Shown here in pieces: positions 16,124-64,000 of a DNA stretch of 64,000 bases (position 1 is its first letter; each line of letters starts with the position of its first letter). The notes beneath the pieces were generated by a model, which saw only the letters and a program-made list of their open reading frames with translations, made no database searches and had not been told where the DNA came from. Source of the DNA: a virus; IMG/VR virus record IMGVR_UViG_3300019093_000008, positions 1-64,000 of that record; one strand, given 5' to 3'. The position numbers and the translations under genes were made by a program.

Positions 16124-16444
16124 ATGAAAATAATTATAACCGAATCACAACTAAAAAAATTAAATTTAGAAGAATTTGCGAAGAAAAGATTTTCTGGTGC
16201 TGAAAAAATTGCTAATACCGCAAAAGAGAAAGGTGGACCTTCAATACTAACATATCAACACTTTGTTGTGAAATTACCATATTATAAAAAAGCTGGTGAG
16301 GGTAAATTTGATGAAAATAAATCTATTGAAGAGTTTAAAAAAACATTAAATTCTATCTCACTTGATATGACACAAAAAGAGTTTCAAACTGAAGTGGGGA
16401 GATTAGAAGTTTTAGGTGAATTAATTATAAAGAACAAAAAATAA
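16124..16444 (+). CDS. Small leader-bearing protein (ITESQL)
   Basis: 106 residues. It begins MKIIITESQLKKLNLEEF, one of the clearest copies of the shared leader, followed by a short basic globular part with no recognised domain. A cut after Leu-Glu-Glu would leave a mature protein of about 90 residues. It is on its own between an LpxH-like gene and a terminator. Confidence 0.75.
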   Translation: MKIIITESQLKKLNLEEFAKKRFSGAEKIANTAKEKGGPSILTYQHFVVKLPYYKKAGEGKFDENKSIEEFKKTLNSISLDMTQKEFQTEVGRLEVLGELIIKNKK

Positions 16445-16982: not shown

Positions 16983-18452
16983 ATGAAATTCATGACCATT
17001 TTATTAAGGGAGGGAAGAAAAGAAGACCTCATGAAAAAATACGAATCAAAATTCTCAGATGAGGGTCTTAGTAACGTTTTTGCGGACCAATTCATTAAGC
17101 AAACTAACTACAAATACGCCGATTTTATTTTAAAAAATTTAAATTCTAATTATTCATTTAGAGAACTTGAAGAGGTAATTGAGGCATTACAAAAGTTTGA
17201 TAAAGTACAAAACAATTTAGAAAAAAAAGACATAAATGATTATACAGGATTTTTTGATTTGATTTCAAGAATTAGTGAATACACTAGAAACAAAGAGAAA
17301 CCAAAATCAAAAAAAATATACGAAGATGATAAATTTGTTGTTGTTGAACCTCAAAACTTTGCGGCATCTTGTAAATACGGTTCAAAAACAAGATGGTGTA
17401 CAACAAATAAAAATAACGATGATTACTTTAACAGGTATACTTCAGGTAATCAAGGTCTTTACTATGTAATTTCAAAAAAAGATATGGATGAAAATCTATA
17501 TAAAATTGCAATTCACATTAGTAATCAAGGTGAGGAAACATTCTACGATGCTGCCGATAGCACTTTAAGTAGTAGAGAAAAAGTATTTTTTAAAAATGCA
17601 TATTCTGAAATGTGGAAAACTATTAAAGAATATCACGATGATGCTCATCCAGATGAAACAGTCGATAAAATAAAACAATCACTTACAACAAACGATGTTT
17701 TTACTGAAAGTATTATAATTTCTGATGTTATAATAACGACAACAATAAACGGATTTGAACTTATGGACCATTATGAAAACACCTTCATAGTTCATTCTGG
17801 TTTGAAGATATATGAAAGAAAAGAAAAACAACAAGGTTTGTTGGATGAATATTTAATTATTATTAGTGCTAATTTAAGAAAAAGAGATTCGTCATACGGT
17901 TTAGAGATTAATTATAACTTTGGTGACGTTGGTTCAGAATTTAAAGTTGATTTAGGTTTTGATGGTTTTGGGGGTAGTTTTAATGTTATTGTACATCACA
18001 CAACTAATATTAGTTCTACAATAGCAACTTACATCTTAAATTCTGTTAGACGAATCTTAGAAAATAATTCAATTCTTTTACAACATATTCATAAGACACC
18101 CGTATGGACACCTGATAGACTCCATTACGGATATACTTTTGAAAAAAATAAAGGTTTGATTAAAAAGTTAGTTGATTGGTTAGATGAAGGAAAAATTGGA
18201 ACAAAGTTAGATTTTCTTGTTGAGATTGGTAAACTTGAAGGAAAGGTTTCAGAGAATGGTTCAGTTTGGTACTCCCAACAAGGTATGAATAATTGGCATC
18301 AATCCTCAAAATGGAGAGGTCATTTTTCATCCTTTTTTGCATCAGCAAAAAATGCTGGCATTTTGAAATATAGAAAAATAGGAAACCAATTTTTTTTAAT
18401 GAAAGGACCTAATTTTGAAGCATATAAAAACGGTGAACTTAAAGCACTTTAA
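16983..18452 (+). CDS. WCTT-family phage protein with winged-helix-like C-terminus
   Basis: 489 residues. The N-terminus (MKFMTILLREGRKEDLMKKY) fits the leader pattern with Leu-Arg-Glu as a possible cut site. Residues about 118-165 carry the family core: VVVEPQNFAASCKYG, TRWCTTN and LYYVISKK. The last 90 residues (KLDFLVEIGKLEGKV through GILKYRKIGNQFFL) look like a winged-helix domain. A long beta-rich middle is unassigned. The strict Trp-Cys-Thr-Thr motif after a Tyr-Gly turn suggests a functional Cys. Confidence 0.8.
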   Translation: MKFMTILLREGRKEDLMKKYESKFSDEGLSNVFADQFIKQTNYKYADFILKNLNSNYSFRELEEVIEALQKFDKVQNNLEKKDINDYTGFFDLISRISEYTRNKEKPKSKKIYEDDKFVVVEPQNFAASCKYGSKTRWCTTNKNNDDYFNRYTSGNQGLYYVISKKDMDENLYKIAIHISNQGEETFYDAADSTLSSREKVFFKNAYSEMWKTIKEYHDDAHPDETVDKIKQSLTTNDVFTESIIISDVIITTTINGFELMDHYENTFIVHSGLKIYERKEKQQGLLDEYLIIISANLRKRDSSYGLEINYNFGDVGSEFKVDLGFDGFGGSFNVIVHHTTNISSTIATYILNSVRRILENNSILLQHIHKTPVWTPDRLHYGYTFEKNKGLIKKLVDWLDEGKIGTKLDFLVEIGKLEGKVSENGSVWYSQQGMNNWHQSSKWRGHFSSFFASAKNAGILKYRKIGNQFFLMKGPNFEAYKNGELKAL

Positions 18453-19848: not shown

Positions 19849-21090
19849 ATGATAAATGAAATAAATAATATACTTTCAATATATAATTCAATTTTAGAAA
19901 ATAAAAAGATAATTACTTTAAATGAGATTAAACCAATCACATTAAATACTGTTAGATATAAAAATGTATTTTACGACACTAAAGCGGCTTCAGATTCGGT
20001 TAATAAGGCACTTTTAGATGATTTACAAACTGCCGCAGCTAAAGCTGGTGTAACTGTTACAATAACAACCGCATCAACAGGTCACAACACTAGAACAACA
20101 TCAGGAGCTGAAAGCCGACATGGACAAAAAACCGCTGTTGATATTGGAAAAATAAATAACCAAGATTCTGGAGATGCAACTAGTCCATCAAATGGAAACG
20201 CTCAATTTAGAGATTTAGGTAATAAATTAAAAGATATCTTAGTCTCTATGAGATATTCTCTGAACTCTGAGAGGGGAAACGATAAAGCCGTTATATGGCA
20301 AACAAATGTAGATGGAAACCATTACAATCATCTACACGTTTCAAATACAACAGATAGTACATCTACGGGTACCACATCCACAAATAATACAACATCGGAT
20401 ACTACATCGTTTACACCAAAAGTAATTAACCCTAACCAAACATATTATCAACCAAAATTAATTGACCCTAACCAAACTTATTACCAAAGTTCAGTAAAAA
20501 CGGAAAGTTATGACATAATATTTGAAGAAAAAATTTATGGTGGTTTTGGAAATGGAGTTTCAAGTAATGGTTATGTCCTTGTAATACCAAAAGATAAGAA
20601 TTCTAAAATTAAATCACCCGTAGATGGGGTAATAACAAAACAAGGATTTTCTTATGGTTGTAAAAACAAAATAAATATTACACACGAAATTGATGGTAAA
20701 AATTTTTATTTAGAATATTGTGGATTAAAAAATACAAAAGATAGTGGTGATGTTTTTAAAGGCGAAATGATTGGTGAAATTGGTGATGATGATGTAACTG
20801 TTACTTTGTATAATTCATCAAAAGAAAGAAGTAGAATTGATTATTATAGAGAAAAAGAATATTCGGGTGATAATAAAAAATATTCAAGAGACGGTAAAAA
20901 AGGTTCTTATAAAAGAAAAACCATTATTGACCCTAATAAAGTGTATTATCCAAGTAAAATACCGGATGCTAATGCTGTATATTTTCCATCTCGTGAAATA
21001 AATCCTAATGCCGTATATTATCCAGCCAATTTTAAAGAAGAATATAAAATACAAAAAGATATCAACAAAATTAGAAAACTATTAAAATAA
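19849..21090 (+). CDS. Dual peptidase: M15-like and M23-like domains with PN-YY repeats
   Basis: 413 residues from the ATG at 19849. The N-terminus (MINEINNILSIYNSILENK) fits the leader pattern with Ile-Leu-Glu. Residues about 75-165 match M15 D-Ala-D-Ala carboxypeptidases (SRHGQKTAVDIG and HYNHLHVSN). Residues about 225-310 look like a degenerate M23 domain (IKSPVDGVITKQ, with LEYCGL). About five INPNQTYYQP-type repeats flank it. Two different peptide-cleaving modules suggest an entry or lysis enzyme acting on cross-links; the repeats may anchor it in the virion. Confidence 0.85.
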   Translation: MINEINNILSIYNSILENKKIITLNEIKPITLNTVRYKNVFYDTKAASDSVNKALLDDLQTAAAKAGVTVTITTASTGHNTRTTSGAESRHGQKTAVDIGKINNQDSGDATSPSNGNAQFRDLGNKLKDILVSMRYSLNSERGNDKAVIWQTNVDGNHYNHLHVSNTTDSTSTGTTSTNNTTSDTTSFTPKVINPNQTYYQPKLIDPNQTYYQSSVKTESYDIIFEEKIYGGFGNGVSSNGYVLVIPKDKNSKIKSPVDGVITKQGFSYGCKNKINITHEIDGKNFYLEYCGLKNTKDSGDVFKGEMIGEIGDDDVTVTLYNSSKERSRIDYYREKEYSGDNKKYSRDGKKGSYKRKTIIDPNKVYYPSKIPDANAVYFPSREINPNAVYYPANFKEEYKIQKDINKIRKLLK

Positions 21091-21355: not shown

Positions 21356-21805
21356 TTATTTTAAAAATCTTAATTTGTACAATGTGGAGTATATTAATTC
21401 TTGAACAGTATCAATTTGATTTTGAATAAATGACTCTTTAACATTTTTTCTAACCTTTTCAATCATAGTATCTAATGATTTGAAATAGTTAATTACTTGG
21501 TCAAGACTTTTATAATCCTCAGTTTTCACAGAATCATAATTTTTAATAATTTCGTATTTACCTTGGTAACTTTCAATAATTCCATCAACTAAACCATCAA
21601 TTTCTTCATAATATTTTTGTAATGCTTTATGTTCAGAAAATGATTTAGTTTGTAAATGAAATATGTGTACTTGAGTTTGTGAATGCAATAAAACTGAGAC
21701 CATATTTTTGAAACCCGAATTACTTTTAATTTCAATTTTATTTTCCTCCTCATTTAAGTACATTGCCTTAAATAATTGTTCTTTAGTTAATGTTAATTTT
21801 TCCAT
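21356..21805 (-). CDS. DUF5856-like, ferritin-like helical protein
   Basis: 149 residues from ATG 21805. All-helical; LLHSQTQVHIFHLQTKSFSEHKAL and EIDGLVDGIIESYQGKY match the DUF5856 pattern of phage proteins related to Dps/ferritin-like bundles. The usual iron ligands cannot be confirmed. The N-terminus LTLTKEQLFKAMYLNEE resembles the shared leader with Leu-Asn-Glu. It could be a packaged protein. Confidence 0.75.
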   Translation of the reverse strand: MEKLTLTKEQLFKAMYLNEEENKIEIKSNSGFKNMVSVLLHSQTQVHIFHLQTKSFSEHKALQKYYEEIDGLVDGIIESYQGKYEIIKNYDSVKTEDYKSLDQVINYFKSLDTMIEKVRKNVKESFIQNQIDTVQELIYSTLYKLRFLK

Positions 21806-25280: not shown

Positions 25281-25285
25281 AAATG

Positions 25286-25357
25286 TTGTCTCGGTCGGAA
25301 TCGAACCGACGACATCTATCGTATCAGAATAGAACTCTACCACTGAGCTACGAGACA
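25286..25357 (-). tRNA. tRNA-Ile (GAT)
   Basis: Acceptor TGTCTCG/CGAGACA, anticodon loop CTGATAC, T loop TTCGATT. First tRNA after the array promoter. Confidence 0.9.
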
Positions 25358-25366
25358 ATTGTTTTA

Positions 25367-25398
25367 CAAATTTACAACCAATATTTCAAAGAACCAAA
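25367..25398 (-). promoter_or_regulatory. Promoter of the minus-strand tRNA array
   Basis: Minus-strand TTTG, 20-nt spacer, TAAATTTG, 10 nt before tRNA-Ile. Confidence 0.8.
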
Positions 25399-25432
25399 AA
25401 AAAAACCCCGAACTCATTTCTGTAGTCCGGGG
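25396..25432 (-). terminator. Intrinsic terminator upstream of the array promoter
   Basis: CCCCGGACT...AGTTCGGGG followed by a long T-run on the minus strand. Confidence 0.88.
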
Positions 25433-25456
25433 TTATGTATATAAGTCTTCAGGAAC

Positions 25457-25552
25457 TTAACTAACTAATGATGAACTACGTTTGAGCATATTGCGAAACC
25501 AACAACCAAATTGTTGTTTATTAATGACAATATGTTTCACTCTGTTGTTCAT
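25457..25552 (-). CDS. Small basic peptide, 31 aa
   Basis: ATG at 25552 to TAA at 25457: MNNRVKHIVINKQQF...KRSSSLVS. It stands alone between tRNA-Leu and the terminator, which argues it is transcribed; whether it is translated is uncertain. Basic with two aromatic residues. Confidence 0.4.
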   Translation of the reverse strand: MNNRVKHIVINKQQFGCWFRNMLKRSSSLVS

Positions 25553-25591
25553 GTTATAATAAATAGTCTAAAAAATATAAAAAGTCAAGTG

Positions 25592-25677
25592 TACCAGGAG
25601 CGGGATTCGAACCCGCACGGACTTTTTCTGTCCAAAGGATTTTAAGTCCTCCTCGGCTACCTTTACGACACCCTGGT
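25592..25677 (-). tRNA. tRNA-Leu (TAA)
   Basis: Acceptor ACCAGGG/TCCTGGT, anticodon arm AGGA-CTTAAAA-TCCT, long variable arm GGAC/GTCC, T loop TTCGAAT. Confidence 0.94.
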
Positions 25678-32125: not shown

Positions 32126-33478
32126 TTATTTTTTCTTCCAACCTGGAGTATTATTTATTGCATCGTCATCATTAGTCTTTTGTTTTGAATTATTATTTAT
32201 CCTAACTCCGTGTCTTGATAAAGTTTGTGGTTCTATATTTTTACCAGATTCAAGTTGTTTTATTTCTACATCTATTTTTTCTATTTCCGAATTTATACTA
32301 TTCATAATTGCTTGATAAATATCACTGAGTTTATATCCATGCCAAAGTTTAGGATAATTTTTTTCATTTCCTCCTTTCAAATAGTTTTCAAATTCTTTCA
32401 ACATCGCATCTCTACCCTTACCATAAACAGCGGGTTTAAGTGTAAAACCTAAAAGACCTGCAAGCCAACCCGCCGGACTTACCCATCCTAAAGATGGAAA
32501 TTCAATAGAATGAACTAATCTATAACAAACTACAAAAAACCAGTGCATATTCTCTTCATCATATTCCGAAAGATTATCTTTATTATCAACTAATGATTGG
32601 TACAAAAAATTTAAAGCCGATTTAACAAGTGTTAAATAAGCTATTTTTTTTACAAGTTGTCTGGCTAAGTTTCCTGTTGCACCAACAAAACCGTAAGATT
32701 TAAAAACCCTCCTTAATAATGGGTAATCTGCAACTCCAGTCAAAAAAAATCTACGAACTATTTCTACTTCTTCTTCGTTCAATTTTTTTCTAAAAGAAGT
32801 TTTGAAATATTTATCACTTGCTTTTGTTATAAAGTTGATTGGTGGTACCCTCACAATTAAACTTTTTGTTCCCGCTAATCCACCTGATTTAGCGTCTTTA
32901 CCAATTGACCAACCTTGTTTAAGTTTTCCCCATTTTGAACTTAAAAATTCAGAACCAGGTATATAATCAGTAATATATACCGTATAATTTTTCAGGTCAT
33001 TTACGATATATTTTTTAACTATATCATCGGTTTGCGGAAATCTTACTCGAACTATGTTTGGTATTCCGTTAAGAATGACATTTGGTTTTACACCACTTTT
33101 AATGTTTTTTTTGATTGCATCTTTGATTAAATTCATATTATTAAATGTCGGTAAATGTTTGGTTAACAATTCTGGTATCAAATAATCCGCGATAGCTTCA
33201 TTTTGAATTAATCTTTTAATAATTCCGTCCTTTGCGGCCACATCTGCCGGTGTATCTAATTTTATTTTACCACTTGTAATTCCTTCAAGTTTTTCAAGGT
33301 CCTTCATAAGGTTTACATCCTTTTGTTTAAACCAAGATTTAAAACCTCTTACTTTAGATATTGACATTATATCTTTCACCATATCATCAGTAATCCCATT
33401 AAAAAATCCTGTATTTTCTAATAATAATCCCATCATTTTTTTAATTTTTTCTACTTCTGTAATCAGTTTTTTTTCCAT
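32126..33478 (-). CDS. Leader-bearing protein, 450 aa
   Basis: N-terminus MEKKLITEVEKIKKMMGLLLEN fits the leader pattern, with Leu-Leu-Glu before Asn. The body is basic and helical with hydrophobic stretches (about 270-340; FPSLGWVSPAGWLAGLLGF) and a Lys/Gln-rich end. Could be a packaged or membrane-interacting effector. No known domain. In line with 33488 and 30907. Confidence 0.75.
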   Translation of the reverse strand: MEKKLITEVEKIKKMMGLLLENTGFFNGITDDMVKDIMSISKVRGFKSWFKQKDVNLMKDLEKLEGITSGKIKLDTPADVAAKDGIIKRLIQNEAIADYLIPELLTKHLPTFNNMNLIKDAIKKNIKSGVKPNVILNGIPNIVRVRFPQTDDIVKKYIVNDLKNYTVYITDYIPGSEFLSSKWGKLKQGWSIGKDAKSGGLAGTKSLIVRVPPINFITKASDKYFKTSFRKKLNEEEVEIVRRFFLTGVADYPLLRRVFKSYGFVGATGNLARQLVKKIAYLTLVKSALNFLYQSLVDNKDNLSEYDEENMHWFFVVCYRLVHSIEFPSLGWVSPAGWLAGLLGFTLKPAVYGKGRDAMLKEFENYLKGGNEKNYPKLWHGYKLSDIYQAIMNSINSEIEKIDVEIKQLESGKNIEPQTLSRHGVRINNNSKQKTNDDDAINNTPGWKKK

Positions 33479-33487: not shown

Positions 33488-34345
33488 TTAAAATGTGATT
33501 TTAAATGTTGTGTCATTATGTATGATGGTATCAGGATTTTCAAAAAGTTTTGGTTGTGCTTTTTTTACTTCCCTTAACATAGATTGTTGTATTTCATCTT
33601 GATTATTAAAAATCAACTGATACAAATTGACCAATTGGTTTTTATCTCTTTCAGATAAATTTTTTTCGTTTTTATAATTAAGAGCCCTATACATTTTATC
33701 ATAAGTTATGAAAGTTCCGGCAATCACAACACCCTCTTTTATTCCGTAGATACCTAATTTAGATATACCTCTTAAAATTTTTATAAGTTCTATCAAACTT
33801 TTTTTAGGTAATTCAGCAATAAATCTTTTAACAATTTCTTTCGAAGTTTCCTTTGCTAATTTATCCGCAACTGGAGTAATTTCTTTAACCAATTTCTTAG
33901 CCATTTCTTGTTCGGCCCTTGATGCGGTTCCAGATGCCACATTCTCAATTAACTCCGTACTACCCTTTGCTCCCAATTTCATAAAAATTTCAGAATTCTT
34001 CAAAAGATTAATTAGTACTCCCGTACTTAAAAGACTAAATGATAATATTAAACCAGCCTCAAAATGATGACCCTCTTTCCAATATCCTGTTGCATTTGAT
34101 ACCGCCGCAGCTGTGGATATAAACATTAAAATTGGAGTTGCGGGAGTAGGTACCATCCCTAATATACCACTTGTAACTTCAATAAATGACAACCAATCAT
34201 GCTTGTTCCAAGTTTTCATCCAGTCAATAGTTTTTACGGCATTTTTAGGTGAAAACCCAATTGTAGGACCACCCAAAAATATTTGTTCGGACATTAAAAC
34301 TTTTATTCTTTCCGTTTCTTTATATAATAGATAATTTTTGTTCAT
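33488..34345 (-). CDS. Leader-bearing protein with hydrophobic helices
   Basis: 285 residues. MNKNYLLYKETERIKVLMSEQ fits the leader pattern (Met-Ser-Glu before Gln). Two long apolar stretches (about 53-80, 95-115) with Ala/Gly (TPILMFISTAAAVSNATGYW) recall pre-toxin or membrane-inserting modules, followed by amphipathic helices. May be an injected membrane-active protein; inference only. Confidence 0.75.
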   Translation of the reverse strand: MNKNYLLYKETERIKVLMSEQIFLGGPTIGFSPKNAVKTIDWMKTWNKHDWLSFIEVTSGILGMVPTPATPILMFISTAAAVSNATGYWKEGHHFEAGLILSFSLLSTGVLINLLKNSEIFMKLGAKGSTELIENVASGTASRAEQEMAKKLVKEITPVADKLAKETSKEIVKRFIAELPKKSLIELIKILRGISKLGIYGIKEGVVIAGTFITYDKMYRALNYKNEKNLSERDKNQLVNLYQLIFNNQDEIQQSMLREVKKAQPKLFENPDTIIHNDTTFKITF

Positions 34346-35218: not shown

Positions 35219-36349
35219 TTAATTTCTTCCTTTCATTCTATTCATCATCTCTAAAATCAGACCTTTTTGTTTATTTACACTTTCTCTGATATCGTCATCA
35301 ATGTCTAATGAATCTTTGTCAGAAGTAATTTCTTCCCAAGAATCATTATCATCATAATCATCTTCTTCATCTTGATTATAATCTAAAATTGCCAAATCAT
35401 CATCCTCATCATCAAAGGCAGATTCCATTTGGTCAAATTCTCTTACCGCTCCATTTGATGAAAAATTAAATGGTCTTTCAATTTCAGAATCATCCAAGTC
35501 CATATCATCGGCTTTGATTGAATATGTATCTCCACTATCTTTTGGTCCTTTGGATGTGAAAGTATATGCTCTTTCTCTATTATCGTAAGGATTTCCTTGA
35601 TATGTTTCTTCCATTTCTCCATCCGCCATCATTTTTCTATCGTTATCGCTGTCATCATCCATTCCATCAGGAGCCATATCATCTGACATATGTGGAGCTT
35701 CCTGACCTGTCAAATTTTGTAAAGCGTCTGCATCAAAAGCATCATCTTCGTCCAAATCACCCATAAAGTATTCAATAGATTTATTTGGCATCATGTGTGT
35801 TGTATTATCTTTTGATTTGAATTTATACATGGTATCACCTCCATGTTTATCTTCAAACTCATCTTCATATTCTAAATCATCGTCAAATTCAGGGTGTTTA
35901 TATTTATATTTTTTACCTCTTTTAAGCTCACTTGAGCTAAGCTCATCAATTTCACCTTCAACGTAATCAAACTTATTATTTTTGTCTATATCATAAACTT
36001 TTTTTAAGTTTTTAACTTGTTGTGTCTCCTCTCCCATTTCTTCTCCCATTCCTCTACCCCCATAACCACATTCCATACATTCACCTTCATATACCATTCC
36101 TCCGCACTCAGAACACATTGATTCTTTTTTAACTTGTTCGTTAATACCCATATTCGTGTATCTCTTAACATCGCCTTTATTAGTTACGGTTACACCAACT
36201 TTATCGTTAGCAAAATCTTGAGTATAAAGTGGTTGTGTATTTGACACTTGAGGTTGCATGGTTCTGTAACCATCGTATAGAGTTTTATGTTGGTCTAAGA
36301 TGTTTCTTTTTTCATCGTTAGACATTAATCCTATTGACCATTGTTTCAT
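35219..36349 (-). CDS. Acidic virion-like protein with a zinc ribbon
   Basis: 376 residues. N-terminus LMSNDEKRNILDQHKTLYDG is a second recurring short leader type (compare the gene at 60578). Residues about 78-93 hold a zinc ribbon (CSECGGMVYEGECMECG). The rest is dominated by Asp/Glu/Met stretches and ends in a basic helix (VNKQKGLILEMMNRMKGRN). Probably head-internal or scaffold-like; unproven. Confidence 0.75.
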   Translation of the reverse strand: MKQWSIGLMSNDEKRNILDQHKTLYDGYRTMQPQVSNTQPLYTQDFANDKVGVTVTNKGDVKRYTNMGINEQVKKESMCSECGGMVYEGECMECGYGGRGMGEEMGEETQQVKNLKKVYDIDKNNKFDYVEGEIDELSSSELKRGKKYKYKHPEFDDDLEYEDEFEDKHGGDTMYKFKSKDNTTHMMPNKSIEYFMGDLDEDDAFDADALQNLTGQEAPHMSDDMAPDGMDDDSDNDRKMMADGEMEETYQGNPYDNRERAYTFTSKGPKDSGDTYSIKADDMDLDDSEIERPFNFSSNGAVREFDQMESAFDDEDDDLAILDYNQDEEDDYDDNDSWEEITSDKDSLDIDDDIRESVNKQKGLILEMMNRMKGRN

Positions 36350-44752: not shown

Positions 44753-45373
44753 ATGAATTATTTAATAACTGAAGAACAATTAAGAATTATCATTAAAGAA
44801 GAGAAAGATTCAAAGTTAACTAACTACATGAAAGAAATGTATTCGTTTACTTATAAAATTGCTTCAATCTCTAAGAAAAAATATGGACTTAATGTAAGAT
44901 TTTTACTAACTATGGGAACTGCAATAGGTGGATTTTTGCTTCCATTGGACAGGTATTTAAAAGAAGGTTCATTTGAATTAAATGATGACCAAATCGCTCT
45001 AATTTTAACAGGTATTGCATCAATTACATTTTACAATAACAAAAGAAATGTGTCAAATATAATTAACAAAATAAAAGAAGAAGGATTATCTGATTATTTT
45101 AAATCCGTGTTAGAAAAGTCAGATAAATTAAAAAATTCTTTTGTTTCTTTTTTAGAAGGTCTTTCATTAACATTAGGTTCTGTACAAGAAATTATTTCAT
45201 ACGCATTTTTACTTCCTTTAGTTACAGATTTAATCAACGTAGCACACGGTACACAAAATTTTTTGGGAGCATCAGAAATGATAGTTGAAAGATTATTAGC
45301 TTCTGGTGTTGTTATAGTTTCGGGACAGATTTTGATTGAAGTTATTAACAAAATACTCAAAAGAGTATCGTAA
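44753..45373 (+). CDS. Leader-bearing membrane protein
   Basis: 206 residues. MNYLITEEQLRIIIKEEKDS is a clear leader copy (Ile-Lys-Glu then Glu). Two or three apolar stretches follow (LLTMGTAIGGFLLPL, AFLLPLVTDLI, GVVIVSGQILIEVI). If the leader directs packaging, this would be an unusual packaged membrane protein. Confidence 0.72.
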   Translation: MNYLITEEQLRIIIKEEKDSKLTNYMKEMYSFTYKIASISKKKYGLNVRFLLTMGTAIGGFLLPLDRYLKEGSFELNDDQIALILTGIASITFYNNKRNVSNIINKIKEEGLSDYFKSVLEKSDKLKNSFVSFLEGLSLTLGSVQEIISYAFLLPLVTDLINVAHGTQNFLGASEMIVERLLASGVVIVSGQILIEVINKILKRVS

Positions 45374-48871: not shown

Positions 48872-49189
48872 TTATTTCTTTTTCTTACTGGCTAAATATT
48901 TGTCTAACGGTAAATCGCTTGGTTTTATTGGACTATATGGTTTTTCCCACTCTTTTCTCCACTCACCTCTTTCGTATTGAACAGGTGAAGGTTTAAAGTT
49001 TTTTCTCATTTTCATATTTGTTATATCATTTTCATCATCATCTTCTTCATAATCAAATCCGTAATCTTGAATCTCATCATTTTCGTCATCAATATACTCA
49101 TCTTCAAAATCAGACTCAAAATCTTCATTTATGATTTTTTTAATTATTTGAACTAATTCTGATTCAGTTAATTTTACTATCTTTTTCAT
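48872..49189 (-). CDS. Leader-bearing acidic small protein
   Basis: 105 residues: KIVKLTESELVQIIKKIINE leader, then an Asp/Glu-rich segment (about 25-55) and a basic, Pro-rich tail (KPSPVQYERGEWRKEWEKPY). A textbook example of the leader with an acidic mature part, as in head-internal peptides. Function unknown. Confidence 0.78.
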   Translation of the reverse strand: MKKIVKLTESELVQIIKKIINEDFESDFEDEYIDDENDEIQDYGFDYEEDDDENDITNMKMRKNFKPSPVQYERGEWRKEWEKPYSPIKPSDLPLDKYLASKKKK

Positions 49190-50636: not shown

Positions 50637-50762
50637 TTAATTATAAAAATTATAAGATAAGTTTTTTCTTGATATTTATAGAAACCAAGATACTAACCTA
50701 AGAAATTTAGAATTTCAGTGGATTGCCGTGTCTTTGGTATTAATGTAAAACCAAGATATAAA

Positions 50763-56949: not shown

Positions 56950-57762
56950 TTATTTTTCTTCTGTTTCTACGGTTATGTTGGTATACACTGGACGTTCGTA
57001 AAATCTTATTAAGTTATTTTCTATTTGAGTAATTTTATCTTTTTTATTTTTAAATAAAATGAACTGATTTGTCATTGGATTAACAAACATAAAAACGTCC
57101 ACATTCTTTTCAGAATATTTACTAGTATTCAAATAACAAGTCACCTCAAAAAAAATATTCCCCTCTGAATCTATATATGAACTAACACTTATAAGTGGTT
57201 TGACCTGTACATTATATGGAGTAGGTTTATAATCAATTCTTATATCAATACCTTGTATAGTGTCTCTAAAATCTCCAGAACAATACCTTATAATTTTTGT
57301 GTTTGGAAATCGTCCTTTTAGTACTTCAACAGCGAAATCTTCATTCTTATTACCAATCATTATTGTATGCATATTCAAATCCACCAATTCTTCTGTATAC
57401 TTTCCGTCAGGACCAAACAAATCGTTTCTATTTTCTTCAATCCAACTTTCAAATGAAATTGGGTTTAAAGTTTGTTTGTTATTTTCAGAAAATAAGAATT
57501 CTAATCTTTCTTTGACTTTAAAATTTGTATCAAAACGATTCAGTATTGACCATTTGTCATTTTCTGAATGTGGAAATATATTTATCACCCCAAAACCTGT
57601 TTGACAATTATCATCAGGATTAGGTGCTTTCCCCCACATTCCGAGAGGTTTATATATCAATTCTAATTGGTGTCTTATGAGTGCAGGTATACTGTATGAA
57701 GACTTGTAAGATTCTAATAAAATTTTTATTTTTTTCCTTAATATGGTTTCGTCCATCATCAT
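56950..57762 (-). CDS. Leader-bearing PD-(D/E)XK nuclease-like protein
   Basis: 270 residues. The N-terminus (ILRKKIKILLESYKSS) fits the leader with Leu-Leu-Glu. Residues about 137-190 resemble a PD-(D/E)XK core: GNKNEDFAVEVLKG, TIQGIDIRIDY, and YNVQVKPL. The fold is also found in restriction enzymes and phage nucleases. If packaged, it could attack host DNA or protect phage DNA at entry. Confidence 0.72.
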   Translation of the reverse strand: MMMDETILRKKIKILLESYKSSYSIPALIRHQLELIYKPLGMWGKAPNPDDNCQTGFGVINIFPHSENDKWSILNRFDTNFKVKERLEFLFSENNKQTLNPISFESWIEENRNDLFGPDGKYTEELVDLNMHTIMIGNKNEDFAVEVLKGRFPNTKIIRYCSGDFRDTIQGIDIRIDYKPTPYNVQVKPLISVSSYIDSEGNIFFEVTCYLNTSKYSEKNVDVFMFVNPMTNQFILFKNKKDKITQIENNLIRFYERPVYTNITVETEEK

Positions 57763-57767
57763 ATTTT

Positions 57768-57977
57768 TTATTTATTTTTCATATCCTTAACTATTTCACC
57801 CATCGTTTTTTTCTTATTATTCCAAGGTTTGAATGAGCGTTTCCATTTATACTCTACTTCAACAGGTCCAAATGTAGTTTTCCTTGTATCATATCTCCAA
57901 ATGGAAATAGATTCTTCGTCCTCATAAACGACTTCCCATTTAACGGGTTTTGATTCTAATTTTTTTTCGAATGGCAT
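57768..57977 (-). CDS. Hypothetical basic protein, 69 aa
   Basis: Beta-rich with many Lys and Trp (VKWEVVYEDEESISIWRYD; YKWKRSFKPWNNKKKT). Near-leaderless start behind a TATCTTTG box. No family recognised. Confidence 0.72.
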   Translation of the reverse strand: MPFEKKLESKPVKWEVVYEDEESISIWRYDTRKTTFGPVEVEYKWKRSFKPWNNKKKTMGEIVKDMKNK

Positions 57978-57981
57978 GTTA

Positions 57982-57989
57982 CAAAGATA
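57982..57989 (-). promoter_or_regulatory. TATCTTTG box, near-leaderless start
   Basis: Minus-strand match with 4 nt to the ATG at 57977; -33 box not evident. Confidence 0.6.
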
Positions 57990-57996
57990 TGAAAAA

Positions 57997-59130
57997 TTAT
58001 ATTTTTCCTTCTCTTGAAGAGAAATAGTCTACTGATAGAGGAGCATAAACTTTTTCCTTTTCTTTTTTTCTACAATAACTGTGTTCCTTACAAAAATATT
58101 CTTCAAATCCTCTAATTCCGCCTATTTCAAAATCATACTTATCATTAACCTTCGAAAGTTCGGGTTTGATAACTTTTGTACATTTAAATTTATCAATCAA
58201 GTTGTATTTTTCTCTAAACGTACTTTTAACTTGTACTGGAACCCAATAATCTGAATTATCTCTCATTTGTTTTATAAGAAAATCAATACCTAAAATCATA
58301 TCAACAAAAGAATAGTCATAGTTATATTTTTTATAAACAATTTTATTATCTTTTAACATATTTTCAAATAATTGTTCAGTTTGAAAACCTTTTTCCCTTA
58401 CTTGTACAAGGGCTCTCATGAAATTATCATGATATTCTGATTTTTCGACTTTGAATTCTTGTGGGTTTAAAATTTTATTTAATAGTAAAATTTTATTCGG
58501 AGTCTTGACTAATTTTTTGTTTTCACCCACTTTATCATTTTCAATTCCTTTTCTAGGGTCAATAAGTTGAACATTTGGATAAAAAAAATGGTCGACCCAA
58601 TTTTCTATAAAAAATTTACTTGGTGTTTTTTGTCTTGTAGTCCAAGTTCTTACTTGTTCTATTAAATCTTCATAGAAAAAGGTCACCAAAACCGCCATAG
58701 CGGTATAATTGGTATTTAATCTATTGATTAAGTGATAATTACCGTTCCCATCTTTGAAATAAACGTTGTATTTAGACATCCATTTTTCTCTCAACTCTTT
58801 TGCGATATTTTCTGCATTCGGACAATTCTTTGATAAATCTTTAACAACTTCGTCAATTTCATCTAATCCATTTTTTACAATGTCAGACTCATTATTTAAT
58901 TCTTCCATTTGGATTTTGGATATTCTCTTGTTACTCGAAAAATACGTTTTAATCAAAGATTCCATATAGGGAGAATATTCTGAAAGATTTTCTGATATAT
59001 GTGATTCTACAGATTTACAAAACTCTCTTAGATTGATGTCTTTAAATACCGTGCACCCTTCAATCTCTTTAGATTTTTTTTCTTCAATTAAAAGAGTCAG
59101 ATACTGACTTTCAGTAATAATAATTTTCAT
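57997..59130 (-). CDS. Leader-bearing PD-(D/E)XK nuclease-like protein
   Basis: 377 residues from ATG 59130. MKIIITESQYLTLLIEEKK is a clear leader copy. A helical middle is followed at about 265-335 by a nuclease-like core: EQLFENMLKDNKIVYKKYN, VDMILGIDFLI, and WVPVQVKSTF. The Cys-rich tail (YFCKEHSYC) may bind zinc. Second nuclease-like protein with the leader, in the same minus-strand run. Confidence 0.75.
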   Translation of the reverse strand: MKIIITESQYLTLLIEEKKSKEIEGCTVFKDINLREFCKSVESHISENLSEYSPYMESLIKTYFSSNKRISKIQMEELNNESDIVKNGLDEIDEVVKDLSKNCPNAENIAKELREKWMSKYNVYFKDGNGNYHLINRLNTNYTAMAVLVTFFYEDLIEQVRTWTTRQKTPSKFFIENWVDHFFYPNVQLIDPRKGIENDKVGENKKLVKTPNKILLLNKILNPQEFKVEKSEYHDNFMRALVQVREKGFQTEQLFENMLKDNKIVYKKYNYDYSFVDMILGIDFLIKQMRDNSDYWVPVQVKSTFREKYNLIDKFKCTKVIKPELSKVNDKYDFEIGGIRGFEEYFCKEHSYCRKKEKEKVYAPLSVDYFSSREGKI

Positions 59131-59205
59131 TAATAATAAATATCTAATGTAAATAAAAATCCCCTCCAATAAAGAGGGGACTTAAAATATAAACATTATT
59201 GATTA

Positions 59206-59658
59206 TTAATCCTTATCACTATTAAAACTATAACCATTGCCAAGTGTTTCATAACAATCTTCTTGAGTTTCTTCAAAATTGTTTGGAGTTCCTTTAACGT
59301 TTACAAATACTAATTCTGGATATTCACATAAATTAACTCCACTAAAATCAGCATTTTCACAATTACTAAAATTAATAAATTTAACGGTTTTAGGTAACTT
59401 TGAAATTGCTTTTTGTACTGATTTAGAATTAAATCCATCTAAAACAACAAAATCTTTATTAGATTCGTGTTTTAAATTTCCTGATTTTCCCATACTACGA
59501 ATGTCATTTCTTTCACTATCATATGAAAAATCGGATTCAAAATTGTCATTATCTAAATCATTTTCAAGTTCGTCAAAAAAACTATCATCTTGTTCTTTAA
59601 TTACTCTTTTAACCAATCTGACTAAATCAGATTCAGTTAATCTTACTATTCTTTTCAT
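59206..59658 (-). CDS. Leader-bearing protein with LRR-like C-terminus
   Basis: 150 residues. LTESDLVRLVKRVIKEQ leader, an acidic linker (FFDELENDLDNDNFESDFSY), then a leucine-rich-repeat-like end (LPKTVKFINFSNCENADFSG, then LCEYPELVFVNVKG). The LRR-like part suggests protein binding. Confidence 0.78.
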   Translation of the reverse strand: MKRIVRLTESDLVRLVKRVIKEQDDSFFDELENDLDNDNFESDFSYDSERNDIRSMGKSGNLKHESNKDFVVLDGFNSKSVQKAISKLPKTVKFINFSNCENADFSGVNLCEYPELVFVNVKGTPNNFEETQEDCYETLGNGYSFNSDKD

Positions 59659-59727
59659 AAATTTTTATTTTATTATAAATACTCAAAAAAAATAAAAATC
59701 CCCCTACAATAAAGAGGGGGACTTAAA

Positions 59728-59982
59728 TTAACTTTCAGGATTTTCCCCTGTGTCTTTTTTGTTGATGAACTTATCAACACTTGCAATACCAAAACAGGCT
59801 ATTGTTAACCATTTGAATGAGTCATAAATAAATTCATTTATAACTAAATCCTTACCTATGGCACCTGTAATAATATCTGCAAGAGCAAACATAGACATCA
59901 TAATAAATGACATAACTCCGATAACGGCTTTTTCGTTAATTGAATTGTCATCGCTAAACATTGACGATAGAAATTTTTTCAT
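59728..59982 (-). CDS. Small membrane protein, holin-like
   Basis: 84 residues from ATG 59982 (MKKFLSSMFSDDNSINEKA). Two transmembrane helices (about 20-42, 55-70) and a charged end. Size and layout resemble phage holins; role unproven because the endolysin cluster is elsewhere. Confidence 0.65.
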   Translation of the reverse strand: MKKFLSSMFSDDNSINEKAVIGVMSFIMMSMFALADIITGAIGKDLVINEFIYDSFKWLTIACFGIASVDKFINKKDTGENPES

Positions 59983-60016
59983 AGTATTTGGTAATTTACT
60001 TACCAATAAATATAAC

Positions 60017-60047
60017 AAAAAAGGGAGACCGTCGCCTCCCTTTTTTT
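60017..60047. terminator. Bidirectional terminator
   Basis: AAAAAAGGGAGACCGTCGCC then TCCC and T7. Confidence 0.85.
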
Positions 60048-60332
60048 AGTCCCCGTCAGGACAATGTGTGTTTAATTTTAAAGGTTCGGCAATTTAAACG
60101 GTGCCGTTAGAGAAGGACGCTCTCCTTTTTATTCAATTTAAAGTCTGAACAAAAACCTATACAAAAAAGACCTGGTTATGTTTTTCCAATTTCGGAAGGA
60201 GTTAGATTACCAATCTGTAGGTCCGCCCGCATTTATTCAAGTTATATTTTTAATATTTAGAGAGGAGAAAAAGTAACTTTGGTGAGTATAGGGAAACAAC
60301 CAAAAAAAATTCCTCTGTCCTTATTTCTTTTA
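60048..60332 (-). ncRNA. Transcribed noncoding region behind a strong promoter
   Basis: No credible ORF. The minus-strand promoter at 60333 would transcribe it to the terminator at 60017. Local hairpins include AGATT/AATCT, GGCA/TGCC, GAGA/TCTC and GTCC/GGAC. It may hold another degenerate tRNA-like element near 60180-60230. Confidence 0.45.
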
Positions 60333-60364
60333 CAAATATACGAGAGATTTTACAACCTGTCAAA
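60333..60364 (-). promoter_or_regulatory. Promoter of the 60048-60332 noncoding RNA
   Basis: Minus-strand TTTG, 20-nt spacer, TATATTTG. Confidence 0.8.
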
Positions 60365-60383
60365 TTTATTAAAGAAATTTCTG

Positions 60384-60476
60384 TGGTTGGGAGTGGAATC
60401 GAACCACTGGCACACGGCTTTCACACCGATGCTCTACCTATGTGAAGTCATGCTTCACAACTGAGCTACCACAACC
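60384..60476 (-). tRNA. tRNA with a perfect hairpin inserted in the D loop
   Basis: T arm AGTGG-TTCGATT-CCACT, acceptor GGTTGTG/CCCAACC (one mismatch) and D arm GCTCAGTT...GGTAGAGC are canonical, but the D loop carries TGTGAAG-CATGA-CTTCACA. The anticodon loop is 8 nt (TGTGAAAG); GAA (Phe) is likely if T33 is conserved. Confidence 0.8.
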
Positions 60477-60543
60477 ATATGTGAAAAAACTTGAATTGAG
60501 TAACCTGAGTATCTTTCATTACCTATGGGCCTCAATTCTTTTA

Positions 60544-60575
60544 CAAATGTATGAAGTATTTTTGAACCAATCAAA
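60544..60575 (-). promoter_or_regulatory. Promoter of the D-loop-insertion tRNA
   Basis: Minus-strand TTTG, 20-nt spacer, TACATTTG, about 67 nt upstream of the tRNA. Confidence 0.8.
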
Positions 60576-60577
60576 TT

Positions 60578-60868
60578 TTATCTTAACATATCTAAATAAA
60601 ATTTTACCGTTCTTCTTAAGATAGGTTTTTCTACTGATGTGAATGTATCTTCTAATACGGAAGATATTTTATTAACCAAATACTTCTTATTTTGAGAAAG
60701 CATATACAATTTGTCATCCACTAAAATCTGTTTGACTGGAGAGTCCATAAATTTCATATTGAATTCATAAACAGGGTAATTCCTCCTCAAATGAATTAAA
60801 ATTTCATTTGAATAATTTCCTTCATATTTCTTACGAATATCTTCTTTTTCTTGCTCTGATAATATCAT
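60578..60868 (-). CDS. Hypothetical protein with a second leader type
   Basis: 96 residues from ATG 60868. MILSEQEKEDIRKKYEGNY resembles the N-terminus of the protein at 35219 (SNDEKRNILDQHKTLYDG). The rest is a small basic helical/beta protein. No family recognised. Confidence 0.68.
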   Translation of the reverse strand: MILSEQEKEDIRKKYEGNYSNEILIHLRRNYPVYEFNMKFMDSPVKQILVDDKLYMLSQNKKYLVNKISSVLEDTFTSVEKPILRRTVKFYLDMLR

Positions 60869-60940
60869 ATAAATAAATATATCAATATTTATCTTCAAAA
60901 GGTATATATGAAATAAATTAGTATTTTATTATATTTCAAT

Positions 60941-61228
60941 ATGAAAACTCCAAAACAAAGGTATATAAACATCATTGAGAAGTACCTTAACGTCCTTAAA
61001 AAGGAGGAAGTGGAGTTGATGTATGGTAAAGGTTCTAAAATCAAAATACATACCTTAAATCCGTCTATAACGACTAATTCTATATTGGTTGAGTCTGTGA
61101 TTATTTTGGGAGATTCCATAAATGAAGAAGTCTTGGATAGGTCTTTAGCTGATTACCTAATCCAAGACATCGTATATCTCATTTTTCCTGAAGCATCTAT
61201 TAAGTGTATGGTAAGATGGGATGTTTAA
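60941..61228 (+). CDS. Hypothetical protein, 95 aa
   Basis: Helix then beta (IIEKYLNVLKKEEVELMYG; SILVESVIILGD; YLIQDIVYLIFPEASIKCM). No family recognised. Independent plus-strand gene between minus-strand leader genes. Confidence 0.65.
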   Translation: MKTPKQRYINIIEKYLNVLKKEEVELMYGKGSKIKIHTLNPSITTNSILVESVIILGDSINEEVLDRSLADYLIQDIVYLIFPEASIKCMVRWDV

Positions 61229-61256
61229 TTTTTTTTCTAATTTAAATTTGTTTTCA

Positions 61257-61264
61257 TATATTTG
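61257..61264 (+). promoter_or_regulatory. TATATTTG box, near-leaderless start
   Basis: 4 nt to the ATG at 61269; weak -33 box. Confidence 0.65.
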
Positions 61265-61268
61265 CATC

Positions 61269-61997
61269 ATGAAAACAAAAATATCGTTATTCATTTTAAC
61301 ATTTATTTTATTTGTAGGAATTTTTGCAAATTCATCTGATAAATCAATTAAGAATGATTTTTTACACACTTCTAAAAGATGTACTGTAAAAAAAATATCT
61401 TTTGGAACCGGAGATATTTTTATTGTAAAAATTTTCAAAAATAAAATGAGCTATAAAGTAGATAGTAAAAATGACGAAAATGTTGATTTTTATCTAAATT
61501 CTAATTTTTTCACAAATCAATCCCCAATTGGAGAAGTTTTAGTTAATGGGAAATTAATAAATAAAAAAGTAAAGATGGGAGGATATTTTACTTCAAACGG
61601 AGGTAACCCAACAATAACTTTATATAGTAGACCTTCGTCTTTATACTCTACTCAAACAAAATACATAGGAATAAAGAATGGTGTTTTAAACGAATCAATT
61701 TTTAAATCAAGACTTTCTAAATGGAAAACATACAGAACTTTATTAGGTAAAGACAAAGATGGTAATTTAATATTAATACATTCAGGAAGAAATGGTTTAG
61801 TTAGTATTAAAGATATTTCTATCATGGGTAAGTCTGAAGGGATGATAGATGCCCTTATATTTGATGGGGGGTCTTCTATTGAGGTTTTAGTTAAAGATGG
61901 TAATTATACTCATTGTTATCATTCGGTATCTGACATAGATAAAAAAAGACTAAAAATACATAAGCCATTTACATATATAACAGGAAAATTTAATTGA
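61269..61997 (+). CDS. Exported NAGPA-like phosphodiester glycosidase
   Basis: 242 residues. Signal peptide (MKTKISLFILTFILFVGIFA). NSNFFTNQSPIGEVLVNGK, GYFTSNGGNPTITLYS and ALIFDGGSSIEVLV match the NAGPA/phosphodiester glycosidase pattern. It may remove N-acetylglucosamine phosphodiesters or modify surface glycans. Confidence 0.8.
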   Translation: MKTKISLFILTFILFVGIFANSSDKSIKNDFLHTSKRCTVKKISFGTGDIFIVKIFKNKMSYKVDSKNDENVDFYLNSNFFTNQSPIGEVLVNGKLINKKVKMGGYFTSNGGNPTITLYSRPSSLYSTQTKYIGIKNGVLNESIFKSRLSKWKTYRTLLGKDKDGNLILIHSGRNGLVSIKDISIMGKSEGMIDALIFDGGSSIEVLVKDGNYTHCYHSVSDIDKKRLKIHKPFTYITGKFN

Positions 61998-62994
61998 TTT
62001 TTTCAATACCATTTAAACATTCATAATTTGACATATACCCTGCGACTTCTTTAACATAATTGTGAGTAGTTAATGGGACTCCCTCATATTCTCCTTTATA
62101 CTTTTCAGTCATTTTGTTCGGAATATAGTTTGGTATTTCTTGAGGTAATACCGTTAAAATTAAATTTGGTTGTTTCTTAGGGTATGGTAAATATTTATGG
62201 TCTTTTGCATTACATGGTGCTGCATAATTTTTATCATTTGTTTTACACCATTTAATTGGTTTTCCGATATTATGTGCGGCTATTGAAATATCTAACGCCC
62301 CGTTACCTGTTCCAGGAGTGTTTGTTGCTTTTGATGATGAATATCCTACCGTTTTTGCTAATTTATAATTATTTACTAGATTAACTATTGCCCCCATTCC
62401 GGCGCCAATTACAGTATATATTTGGTCTCCATTTATGTTGAACAATTTTTCCATATTAAGATTATTCCATGTTGATAAACGTATTTGTGCCGGACCATAA
62501 CTACCTGTTCTACCACCCAACTTGTGTTTTCTTGCCCATTCATATCTGTTTAAAAAATTGTACACATTTTTTTTAAAATACCTTGGGGTGATTTCAAACT
62601 GACCTTTACTAAAACTAATAAATTTGGTAAAATTAGATTCCCTACCGATAATTCCAATAGATGCTTTTAAAAACATTATTAATTCTTTTTCAGTAATTCC
62701 TAATTTTGAAATTATGTATTTTTTATTTATCATCACATAAACAACTAGTGGAACCATTGTATATGGTACGCAACTTATAATACCAAAACTTTTAATGAAA
62801 TTATTAACACCAGTATTTATTTCTTTAAAGTATTTATCTTGAGCTTCGATTGCAGGGCCAATACTTTTTGGGTTATTGGACTTGTACCCAAATCTTTCTA
62901 TATGTCCTGGCATTTTTTCGTCAGGTTGTTCAGATAAAATTCTTTTAATTATTTCACCTAAATCCTCCTCTGTTAACTTTATAATTCTTTTCAT
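61990..62994 (-). CDS. Leader-bearing lytic transglycosylase-like protein
   Basis: 334 residues. IIKLTEEDLGEIIKRILSEQ leader (Leu-Ser-Glu before Gln). Residues about 105-185 resemble a lytic transglycosylase: SIGIIGRESNFTKF with catalytic Glu and GSYGPAQIRLSTWNNL. Cys pair in the C-terminal half. A packaged wall-cutting enzyme would suit entry. Confidence 0.78.
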   Translation of the reverse strand: MKRIIKLTEEDLGEIIKRILSEQPDEKMPGHIERFGYKSNNPKSIGPAIEAQDKYFKEINTGVNNFIKSFGIISCVPYTMVPLVVYVMINKKYIISKLGITEKELIMFLKASIGIIGRESNFTKFISFSKGQFEITPRYFKKNVYNFLNRYEWARKHKLGGRTGSYGPAQIRLSTWNNLNMEKLFNINGDQIYTVIGAGMGAIVNLVNNYKLAKTVGYSSSKATNTPGTGNGALDISIAAHNIGKPIKWCKTNDKNYAAPCNAKDHKYLPYPKKQPNLILTVLPQEIPNYIPNKMTEKYKGEYEGVPLTTHNYVKEVAGYMSNYECLNGIEKIN

Positions 62995-64000
62995 TTAGTA
63001 GAGTTAATATTTTTTGACACTTCATTATCAGACACAACCCAAACTATCATAGCATCATTTTTACTTAATAATTTATTAGCCGGGGTTGCATGATGTAAAC
63101 CTTGGGTTTCGTTGCCAATGTTGTGTAATATTATCGGCATACCATCCTTAATTGCTGTGACAAACCCAACATGAGTGTTAAAAGTGAATTTACCTTTCAC
63201 TTTCACATTACCGTCGTTCTGTAAACCTTGTAATTTAATTCTCTGACAGAATGCTTGCCCTTTATTTGTTGATGCATTATAATACATCCCTACAATATCT
63301 CCAAGCTGTAAATTTTTATAATTAAATGAAGTTCTTTGTGGATAACTATTTGTAACTATTTGAGGAATATTTCCTTTGCATTTTCCATCCATGTGGTCAT
63401 CTTTATAACAATCACATATCTGAGGACTTACTTTGTTTTTAACTAAATTGGTATAAATTTCATTCCATTTAATATCATCAGTTCCAAACATGTTGTATTT
63501 TTCAACACCTTTAGCTTTCATATTTTGAAAAGCAAACCATGCATTTGATTTACGCTTAACCAATTCTTCATTGTATGTTGATAAACATTTTATCATATAC
63601 GCAGCACACCTTTTATCGTCACCAGTGCTAATTATTGTGTCTTGTTTAGAATTTATTTTTGAACATTCTTCTTTTGAAATTCCAACACATGTATATTTTT
63701 CTTGTTTAGGTTCAACTTTTAGTGAATTCTTACTTTCGTATCTTTTTAATGCTGCTTTTGTTAGAGTACCAAAATACCCTGTTGGGGTCATCGATTTAGT
63801 TTTTAAAAATCCTAATTTAAATAATTTTGACTGTAATTCTTTTACATCATTAATTTGTTTTGGATTATTTCTTCCTCCGTCACCTAGTTTCAAGTTTTTT
63901 GGGTTAATATTTTCTTTATTTGCATTTGGGTTTAAAGGTGAATATGTGGGTATGAGAAACTTAGATTGCTCATTCAAAACTTTTTTAACAATTTTTTTTA
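62991..64000 (-). CDS. Leader-bearing peptidoglycan-binding/CHAP-like protein, 5' end cut by the window
   Basis: The frame stays open to the window edge; upstream of the apparent TTG start it reads KKIVKKVLNEQSKF, the end of a leader, so the true start lies beyond 64000. Residues after about 50 match PG_binding_1 (ELQSKLFKLGFLKTKSMTPT, GYFGTLTKAALKRYESK). The C-terminus (GDIVGMYY, NTHVGFVTAIKDGMPIILHN) resembles an NlpC/CHAP amidase with Cys and His. It overlaps the transglycosylase by 4 nt. Confidence 0.8.
   Translation of the reverse strand, partial: KKIVKKVLNEQSKFLIPTYSPLNPNANKENINPKNLKLGDGGRNNPKQINDVKELQSKLFKLGFLKTKSMTPTGYFGTLTKAALKRYESKNSLKVEPKQEKYTCVGISKEECSKINSKQDTIISTGDDKRCAAYMIKCLSTYNEELVKRKSNAWFAFQNMKAKGVEKYNMFGTDDIKWNEIYTNLVKNKVSPQICDCYKDDHMDGKCKGNIPQIVTNSYPQRTSFNYKNLQLGDIVGMYYNASTNKGQAFCQRIKLQGLQNDGNVKVKGKFTFNTHVGFVTAIKDGMPIILHNIGNETQGLHHATPANKLLSKNDAMIVWVVSDNEVSKNINSTK

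Follow-up and report, generated by a model that had tools for sequence, protein, structure and literature searches.

The DNA analysed here, called the window below, is a stretch of 64,000 nucleotides (positions 1 to 64,000 of the IMG/VR virus record IMGVR_UViG_3300019093_000008, which has 68.6 kb), and the element in question is a short leader, closed by a hydrophobic-x-Glu step, which stands at the N-terminus of many otherwise unlike proteins. In long aligned blocks the window is 99.8-100% identical to a longer record, IMGVR_UViG_3300013014_000024 (97.7 kb, hereafter G001); the match breaks at about 3.7-4.5 kb, in a repeat-rich stretch, and a Thr/Pro-rich repeat protein (window 3882-4682) has 266 residues there against 306 in G001, that is 40 fewer. 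G001 adds about 33 kb beyond the window, with a further array of leader genes (at 0.8-16 kb) and a T4-type head module: a terminase, a portal protein (PF07230), a prohead protease (PF03420), an acidic scaffold and a gp23 capsid protein (PF07068), the terminase and the scaffold being named from their position and look. The prohead protease, a gene which a preliminary description of the window had proposed to look for, belongs to T4's own family, Peptidase_S77 (PF03420, E 4.8e-23; G001 85704-86423), and adjoins the portal (gp20), the scaffold and the gp23 capsid protein. The left end of the window (88-3858, minus strand) adjoins this head module.

That description had seen one leader, of the type LTES-x-L-x-x-I-x-K, on 14 genes of the window. 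Twelve of the 14 do have some kind of leader (Table 1), but there are at least four interchangeable kinds, which we call classes A to D, rather than one. The LTES-x-L-x-x-I-x-K pattern, which marks the 22-residue leader of class A, is present at 48872, 59206, 61990 and 62991, while the other named genes have other kinds: a second class, MK(Y/I)I(I/L)TE-x-Q or near it, at 16124, 44753 and 57997, and the RIKxxM-type class D, recognised by eye and known without a profile, at 32126 and 33488. The head-module gene 1416 has an LTES element as claimed, starting after about 20 residues and not at the N-terminus. At 19849 (a peptidase gene) and 21356 one finds a single hydrophobic-x-Glu and no significant class match, and we do not retain these two. 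Three leader genes had been overlooked, namely 60578 and 35219, both of class C, and 2635. The start codon of 62991 lies past the end of the window, since its leader spans 63969-64034.

Table 1. Leaders and related features, in window coordinates unless another record is named; an arrow marks the predicted junction, and HMM stands for hidden Markov model.
Feature	Coordinates	Strand	Remarks
Class A leader end ...KKVLNE↓Q of 62991 protein	63969..64000	-	leader runs to 64034
Body of 62991 protein, peptidoglycan-binding domain	62991..63968	-	PF01471 E 1.4e-8
Class A leader MKRIIKLTEEDLGEIIKRILSE↓Q of protein 61990-62994	62929..62994	-	HMM E 1.7e-12, own seed; L002_8524, of class B, has the same body
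Body of 61990 protein	61990..62928	-	
Class C-type leader MILSEQEKEDIRKKYEG of 60578-60898	60818..60868	-	class C seed and match; class B homologue L146_5985
Class A leader MKRIVRLTESDLVRLVKRVIKE↓Q of 59206-59658	59593..59658	-	HMM E 4e-14, a seed
Class B leader MKIIITESQYLTLLIE↓E of 57997 gene	59083..59130	-	likely ATG 13 codons inside the listed TTG open reading frame
Leader MMMDETILRKKIKILLE↓S of 56950-57762	57712..57762	-	homologue L243_6860 has a class B leader
Class A leader MKKIVKLTESELVQIIKKIINE↓D of 48872-49189	49124..49189	-	HMM E 5.7e-13, a seed
Class B leader MNYLITEEQLRIIIKE↓E of 44753 gene	44753..44800	+	likely ATG 2 codons inside the listed TTG open reading frame; G017 homologue reads MDFLINESQLRLILQE↓Q
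Class C element MSNDEKRNILDQHKTLYDG in 35219 gene	36269..36325	-	class C seed and match
Class D leader MNKNYLLYKETERIKVLMSE↓Q of 33488	34286..34345	-	by eye and motif
Class D leader MEKKLITEVEKIKKMMGLLLE↓N of 32126	33416..33478	-	by eye and motif
Claimed leader on DUF5856 (ferritin-like) gene 21356, not supported	21749..21805	-	no significant class match; DUF5856 E 5e-21
Claimed leader MINEINNILSIYNSILE↓N of 19849, not supported	19849..19899	+	no class match
Short leader MKFMTILLRE↓G of 16983	16983..17012	+	G016 protein reads MKFMGILLRE↓G
Class B leader MKIIITESQLKKLNLEE of 16124	16124..16174	+	homologue in Flavobacterium phage immuto starts MRLLELLRE↓A
Class D leader KIKRIMEIARYNEVVPVNLNE↓H of head-module gene 2635	3748..3858	-	junction kept in homologues, see text
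LTESQ element VLKLTESQISTLHNRMVVE↓A of head-module gene 1416	2139..2195	-	junction kept in homologues, see text
Sigma-70 factor with class B leader	L196:5918-6493	+	
Immuto scaffold tail RWQKLAGIIK, copied in two N-terminal leaders	L015:29626-30867; immuto 25061, 111675		

A class A profile built from nine leaders gives ten strong matches in G001 (E 3e-14 to 4e-9), nine of them being its own seeds and the tenth internal, and shuffled proteins give 0-5 weak matches per replicate at E<=1. Independently of these seeds, a search of IMG/VR by the leader alone (a pattern on residues 1-10, then tblastn) finds it recurring at no fewer than 79 loci. The 2506 open reading frames (ORFs) of these loci, which number at least 79, contain 174 class A matches, 136 of them distinct; 122 lie at the start of the ORF, 12 more at most 30 residues from it and 2 deeper. 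Conservation was counted on the 130 that have L7 and E9, or TE at 8-9: E9 (part of this selection), E22 and [ILV]20 are each found in 130/130, residue 21 is free, with 12 kinds of residue, and 78 of the leaders have Q at residue 23. Column identity, taken over 111 dissimilar bodies, drops from 1.0 at residue 22 to 0.35 at residue 23 and to 0.05-0.09 from residue 24 on. In order to avoid circularity, class A was also picked on residues 1-12 only: of the 147 ORFs so chosen, 145 have E22, and of the 90 left once the 57 query hits are dropped, 88 have it, the background frequency of Glu being 5.8%. In the remaining two, E↓Q is likewise present, one position before or after. The hydrophobic moment of the leader is 1.76 (0.87 when shuffled). 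Counted over four records (516 ORFs), the motif [ILVM]xEQ occurs 54 times in 23220 in residues 1-45 as against 64 in 92319 after residue 70 (odds ratio 3.4, p 4e-10), the odds ratio of a control motif being 0.93.

Classes B and C, profiled over 5280 distinct ORFs of 252 loci, read M-K-[YI]-I-I-[TS]-E-x-Q and E-x-E-K-x-x-I-L-x-x-H ... E-Q. E7 of class B is present in 46/46, partly through selection, and [ILVMF]xE[QSAGDN] follows the class C element in 36 cases out of 45, where 9.3 are expected. Leader genes stand in runs of two or more in 132 cases out of 255, and the classes are mixed within single arrays (B-A-A-A-A-C, for example). Moreover, different leaders are found on homologous bodies. 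The protein of 61990 (class A) is 35% identical over 263 residues to L002_8524 (B), that of 56950 (ILLE↓S) 45% identical to L243_6860 (B), that of 16124 (B) 63% identical to immuto 112261 (MRLLELLRE↓A) and that of 16983 (ILLRE↓G) 27% identical, over 177 residues of body, to L160_857 (A); the same holds for the pairs L181_4558 (A) and L150_4949 (C), L139_775 (A) and L002_6094 (C), L005_6871 (B) and L150_6412 (C), and L202_3583 (A) and L181_7425 (B). Most homologous pairs, counted directionally, are nevertheless of one class (403 A-A, 42 B-B, 55 C-C) and only 10 lie between profiled classes; 216 others join a leader protein to a protein outside all classes, some of which, among the matches listed, have shortened leaders or are fusions.

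The leader end, hydrophobic-x-Glu, matches the junctions of the lineage's own capsid protein and scaffold. LINE↓A is present in 36/36 capsid proteins of the lineage (36 kept of 43 BLAST hits) and in 14/14 readable ones from leader-bearing records of up to 322 kb, a fifteenth being without N-terminus. It aligns with the cleavage site FLTE↓A of T4 gp23, and it is from this alignment that the cut is predicted here. At the same position one reads IVSE↓A in immuto, LISE↓A in Microcystis phage Mel-JY01 and HLME↓T in Rhodothermus phage RM378; of these capsid-protein relatives, immuto and RM378 are what the proposed attribution to a Bacteroidota phage is founded on, while Mel-JY01 does not speak for it. 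The scaffolds were counted above 250 residues (79 of 88 BLAST hits, 73 distinct). In 72 of these 79 a leader-like helix ends in LVKESLxE↓(Q/D), and six of the other seven have an insertion and then L-x-E↓Q, which brings L-x-E↓(Q/D) to 78/79; a hypervariable acidic stretch follows the junction. In the head-module families, the Glu of 1416 is kept in 18/18 homologues (E↓Q in 16 of them) and [ILV][NS]E of 2635 in 22/22. The gene after the capsid gene in G001, 91337, has in its family N-terminal leaders of 7-39 residues, the longest of which may start too early, with little in common except the [IL]xE that immediately precedes a conserved body, whose first residue is A or V; this is so in all 23 readable N-termini out of 34, one of them being counted by eye as IKE↓A.

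The same family carries a tag at its other end. Its C-terminal tail is a class A-like helix, and in L104 a complete class A leader; a Glu directly precedes this tag in 27/27 (27 of 29 matched tails, the other 2 being too short), while 5 of the 27, all within one fetched subset of records, have lost the Glu at the distal end. In two cases the tag separates two domains and is flanked on either side by hydrophobic-x-Glu (NINE↓...ISE↓Q in one, KIME↓...LSE↓Q in the other). In immuto, where the scaffold ends in RWQKLAGIIK, two leaders hold RMQKLAGII or RMQFLAGII before TE↓S, a match of 8 out of 9 which 0/500 shuffled tails reach; these leaders, copying the C-terminal tail of the scaffold, suggest that the tag may work by imitating it. 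Four other immuto proteins (102294, 102880, 113188 and 123355) have another common start, MKKS(Q/E)(L/I)..., and one of them is near the portal gene.

Among 50 leader records, the protease and the portal occur in exactly the same 18, and gp23 is above the cut-off in 17 of these. In the eighteenth, G045, the protease is at most 3 kb from the end of the record; two other leader records have a sub-threshold gp23 match only. The protease is found in five of the six leader records over 200 kb. The leader hits of the exception, G036, match those of G035 at a constant offset, such that G036 would end before the protease. A class A match is present in 20 of 26 protease-bearing records, one of them marginal.

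Most of the bodies behind the leaders have no known function; among the others are some murein enzymes, an acetyltransferase and one sigma factor. In 110 class A proteins of at least 90 residues we found 6 Pfam families (peptidoglycan binding, two GNAT models, YkuD, Tlde1 and annexin, one protein each), versus 58 in 110 leaderless ORFs of the same loci (90-400 residues, class-like motifs excluded). PHROGs gives 13 families for the class A proteins, six of which are endolysin models or acetyltransferase, and PADLOC four single weak matches (best E 3e-4). The 87 proteins of classes B and C yield 12 families, including OmpA, LysM, M23, phage lysozyme and one sigma-70 factor, which is a candidate packaged transcription factor, or else a counter-example. 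With regard to the cargo proposed earlier, some bodies are indeed wall- or membrane-related; the nuclease-like one was assigned by eye, and the ferritin-like one is given up with the leader of 21356, a DUF5856 protein being found among the leaderless controls. The body of 61990 looks like a lytic transglycosylase by eye and has no match in Pfam, NCBIfam, PHROGs or PDB; its AlphaFold model is one of two that are too poor for use (mean predicted local distance difference test scores of 42.7 and 43.7). No NCBIfam family matches 56950, and tblastn with the 16983 protein finds no cultured-phage match. The proteins of 16983, 11073 and 47763 have, by eye, a common domain look, EAS.KYG..T.WCTT....YF; the relative L160_857 of the first is of class A.

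Off the leader list, 73 G001 proteins were scanned (75 non-leader ORFs less 2, still including 1416, 2635, 91337, the scaffold and the capsid protein). ThyA, an RNA ligase, a ClpA-type ATPase (window 8119-10131, plus strand) and a Clp protease domain are among them. ThyA and the RNA ligase, the cytoplasmic enzymes whose possession of the leader was to count against a capsid signal, are without it, and so is ClpA.

We conclude that the leaders are very probably T4-type capsid-targeting propeptides, cut by the phage's S77 protease after the hydrophobic-x-Glu; the T4-like reading of the preliminary description has thus held in the sequence tests that could be run. The tag, its modularity, its near-invariant Glu, a head module with a protease and the matching sites of capsid protein and scaffold can be read directly in the sequences, and it is from them that we infer docking, cleavage and packaging. 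The short amphipathic helix at the end of the protein would dock to the growing prohead core, beside the scaffold and the protease; the gp21-type serine protease would then cut after the hydrophobic-x-Glu which closes the tag on the side of the body, and the mature protein would be freed inside the head, among the DNA. By analogy with T4 only, the freed proteins may then leave the head together with the genome and have an early effect in the host, by wall digestion, counter-defence or host take-over.

Several observations weigh against this conclusion. T4 prefers A, G or S after the cut, unlike class A, where Q stands there in 78/130; A does occupy this place in the capsid protein and in the 91337 family. 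The downstream site of class B is weakly above chance (15/53 versus 8.2 expected), the residue two before the Glu of the C-terminal tag is not hydrophobic, and one scaffold, L224 (the same gene as L242), is without a site. The class A profile, the same that does match in other records, has no match in T4, immuto, Mel-JY01, RM378 or three huge-phage records; for T4 the leader is too short for a test of homology with its capsid-targeting sequence (CTS), and the resemblance is one in kind only. Searching cultured phages by tblastn with the leader consensus found nothing, so short a query being insensitive. A profile of the scaffold tail matched no leader in the lineage of the window, and for this reason scaffold mimicry is claimed for immuto only. 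T4-type protease and portal are lacking in 32 of the 50 leader records, including four of 109-183 kb besides G036, one of 274 kb; such records, G060 and G077 among them, may be fragments or have another head type. Finally, the leaderless set also has wall enzymes (M23, YkuD_2, VanY), which means that these are not confined to leader genes, and the sigma factor could act in the cytoplasm.

A wider proposal is more tentative, and we would lean slightly away from it at present: a general code for entry into the head, in which portable and interchangeable tags at the N-terminus, at the C-terminus or between domains would be split off at a prohead-protease site, throughout a large uncultured T4-like lineage with records of up to 322 kb, the load being open-ended and made mostly of unknown proteins (murein enzymes and a sigma factor included) for injection into the host.

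It is unlikely, in our opinion, that the leader is a helix which docks to the capsid or to another part of the virion and stays uncut, the final Glu merely capping it. The strong amphipathic signal is what one would expect of such a helix, whose end could favour Glu, and class B has no clear second site. However, a protease site accounts better for the free residue 21, the near-invariant Glu 22 and the sudden stop of conservation, and a cap does not explain well that both one-residue shifts keep E↓Q, that six of the seven deviating scaffolds re-form L-x-E↓Q further on after their insertion, or that the leaders of the 91337 family agree in little but [IL]xE at the body junction. The C-terminal tags argue in the same direction, since it is the body-facing Glu which is always kept and the far one which is sometimes lost, in related sequences and by few events. 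Still less likely is an address other than the head, such as a membrane, the tail or a phage compartment inside the cell. In its favour, certain bodies are related to the membrane or the wall, and amphipathic helices can bind membranes; against it, similar elements are found in the genes 1416 and 2635 of the head module and next to the capsid gene, and the scaffold has the same junction. Nor do the leaders read have the hydrophobic core of a signal peptide, with its signal-peptidase site, class A being amphipathic and charged throughout; a secretion signal is thereby rejected. An inherited scrap of old paralogues with diverged bodies, or a start signal at the DNA level, is the least probable of all: the clustering of leader genes would suit the former, but common ancestry of all leader genes is rejected on account of the leader swaps on homologous bodies, the tag is C-terminal and internal as well, and the DNA-level signal is rejected because synonymous codons vary at conserved class A residues.

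Two other features of the window may be mentioned. A cluster of tRNA genes lies at 21833-25677 on the minus strand, with a few more on the plus strand and 15 in total. On either side of the gene for a PAS-domain protein (50718-51878, plus strand) a small membrane-like protein is encoded (50009 and 52386), the two being similar to each other.

No paper describing these leaders was found in the open-licence literature, as judged on titles and the start of abstracts. If our conclusion is correct, a 22-residue profile labels, from sequence, genes for virion cargo, probably injected, among those without known function in a phage lineage common in the environment. In T4, according to the part of the source available to us, IPI is a restriction-enzyme inhibitor and Alt an RNA-polymerase modifier (PMC9026906); with such equivalents, the list of leader genes would offer ready candidates for proteins of counter-defence and host take-over. 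It would also become directly testable which of the phage's proteins enter the cell.

Among known systems, the scaffold fusions of P22 and the cargo peptides of encapsulins work similarly, in that a terminal peptide loads cargo into a shell; we know of no proteolytic removal of these peptides by a prohead protease. In the accessible portions of the papers cited here and below, the first 30 residues of P1 DarB are enough to direct a reporter to the capsid (PMC9024508), which is likewise an N-terminal capsid signal, on one large protein in that case. SPN3US and phiKZ have propeptides on head and ejection proteins, cut after Glu (A-x-E in SPN3US), and differ in that several of them exceed 100 residues; no short, widely common tag is described there, except for two paralogues that begin with an identical stretch of 15 residues (PMC5694885). 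The closest case is T4, whose CTS of 10-19 residues is removed by gp21 after L/I-x-E (PMC9026906, PMC3012670, PMC5694885) and is the only conserved part of the diverse internal proteins of T-even phages (PMC9026906, PMC3012670). IPI-IPIII and Alt have, like the proteins studied here, short N-terminal leaders on unlike bodies, an S77 protease with a cut after (L/I)-x-E (in our case a predicted one) and a T4-type portal, scaffold and gp23. Alt is cut at ITE-6 (PMC5694885), resembling our class B leaders, and C-terminally at LTE-619 (PMC9026906, PMC3012670, PMC5694885), resembling our C-terminal tags. The present leaders differ from those of T4 in sequence, in forming several interchangeable classes and in the 22 residues of class A, and apparently also in Q rather than A after the class A cut, in C-terminal and internal tags and in many more cargo proteins. 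The CTS of T4 and its removal are known; as to the present leaders, the sequence evidence strongly indicates that they work like the T4 CTS and belong to its mechanism, as a variant of it.

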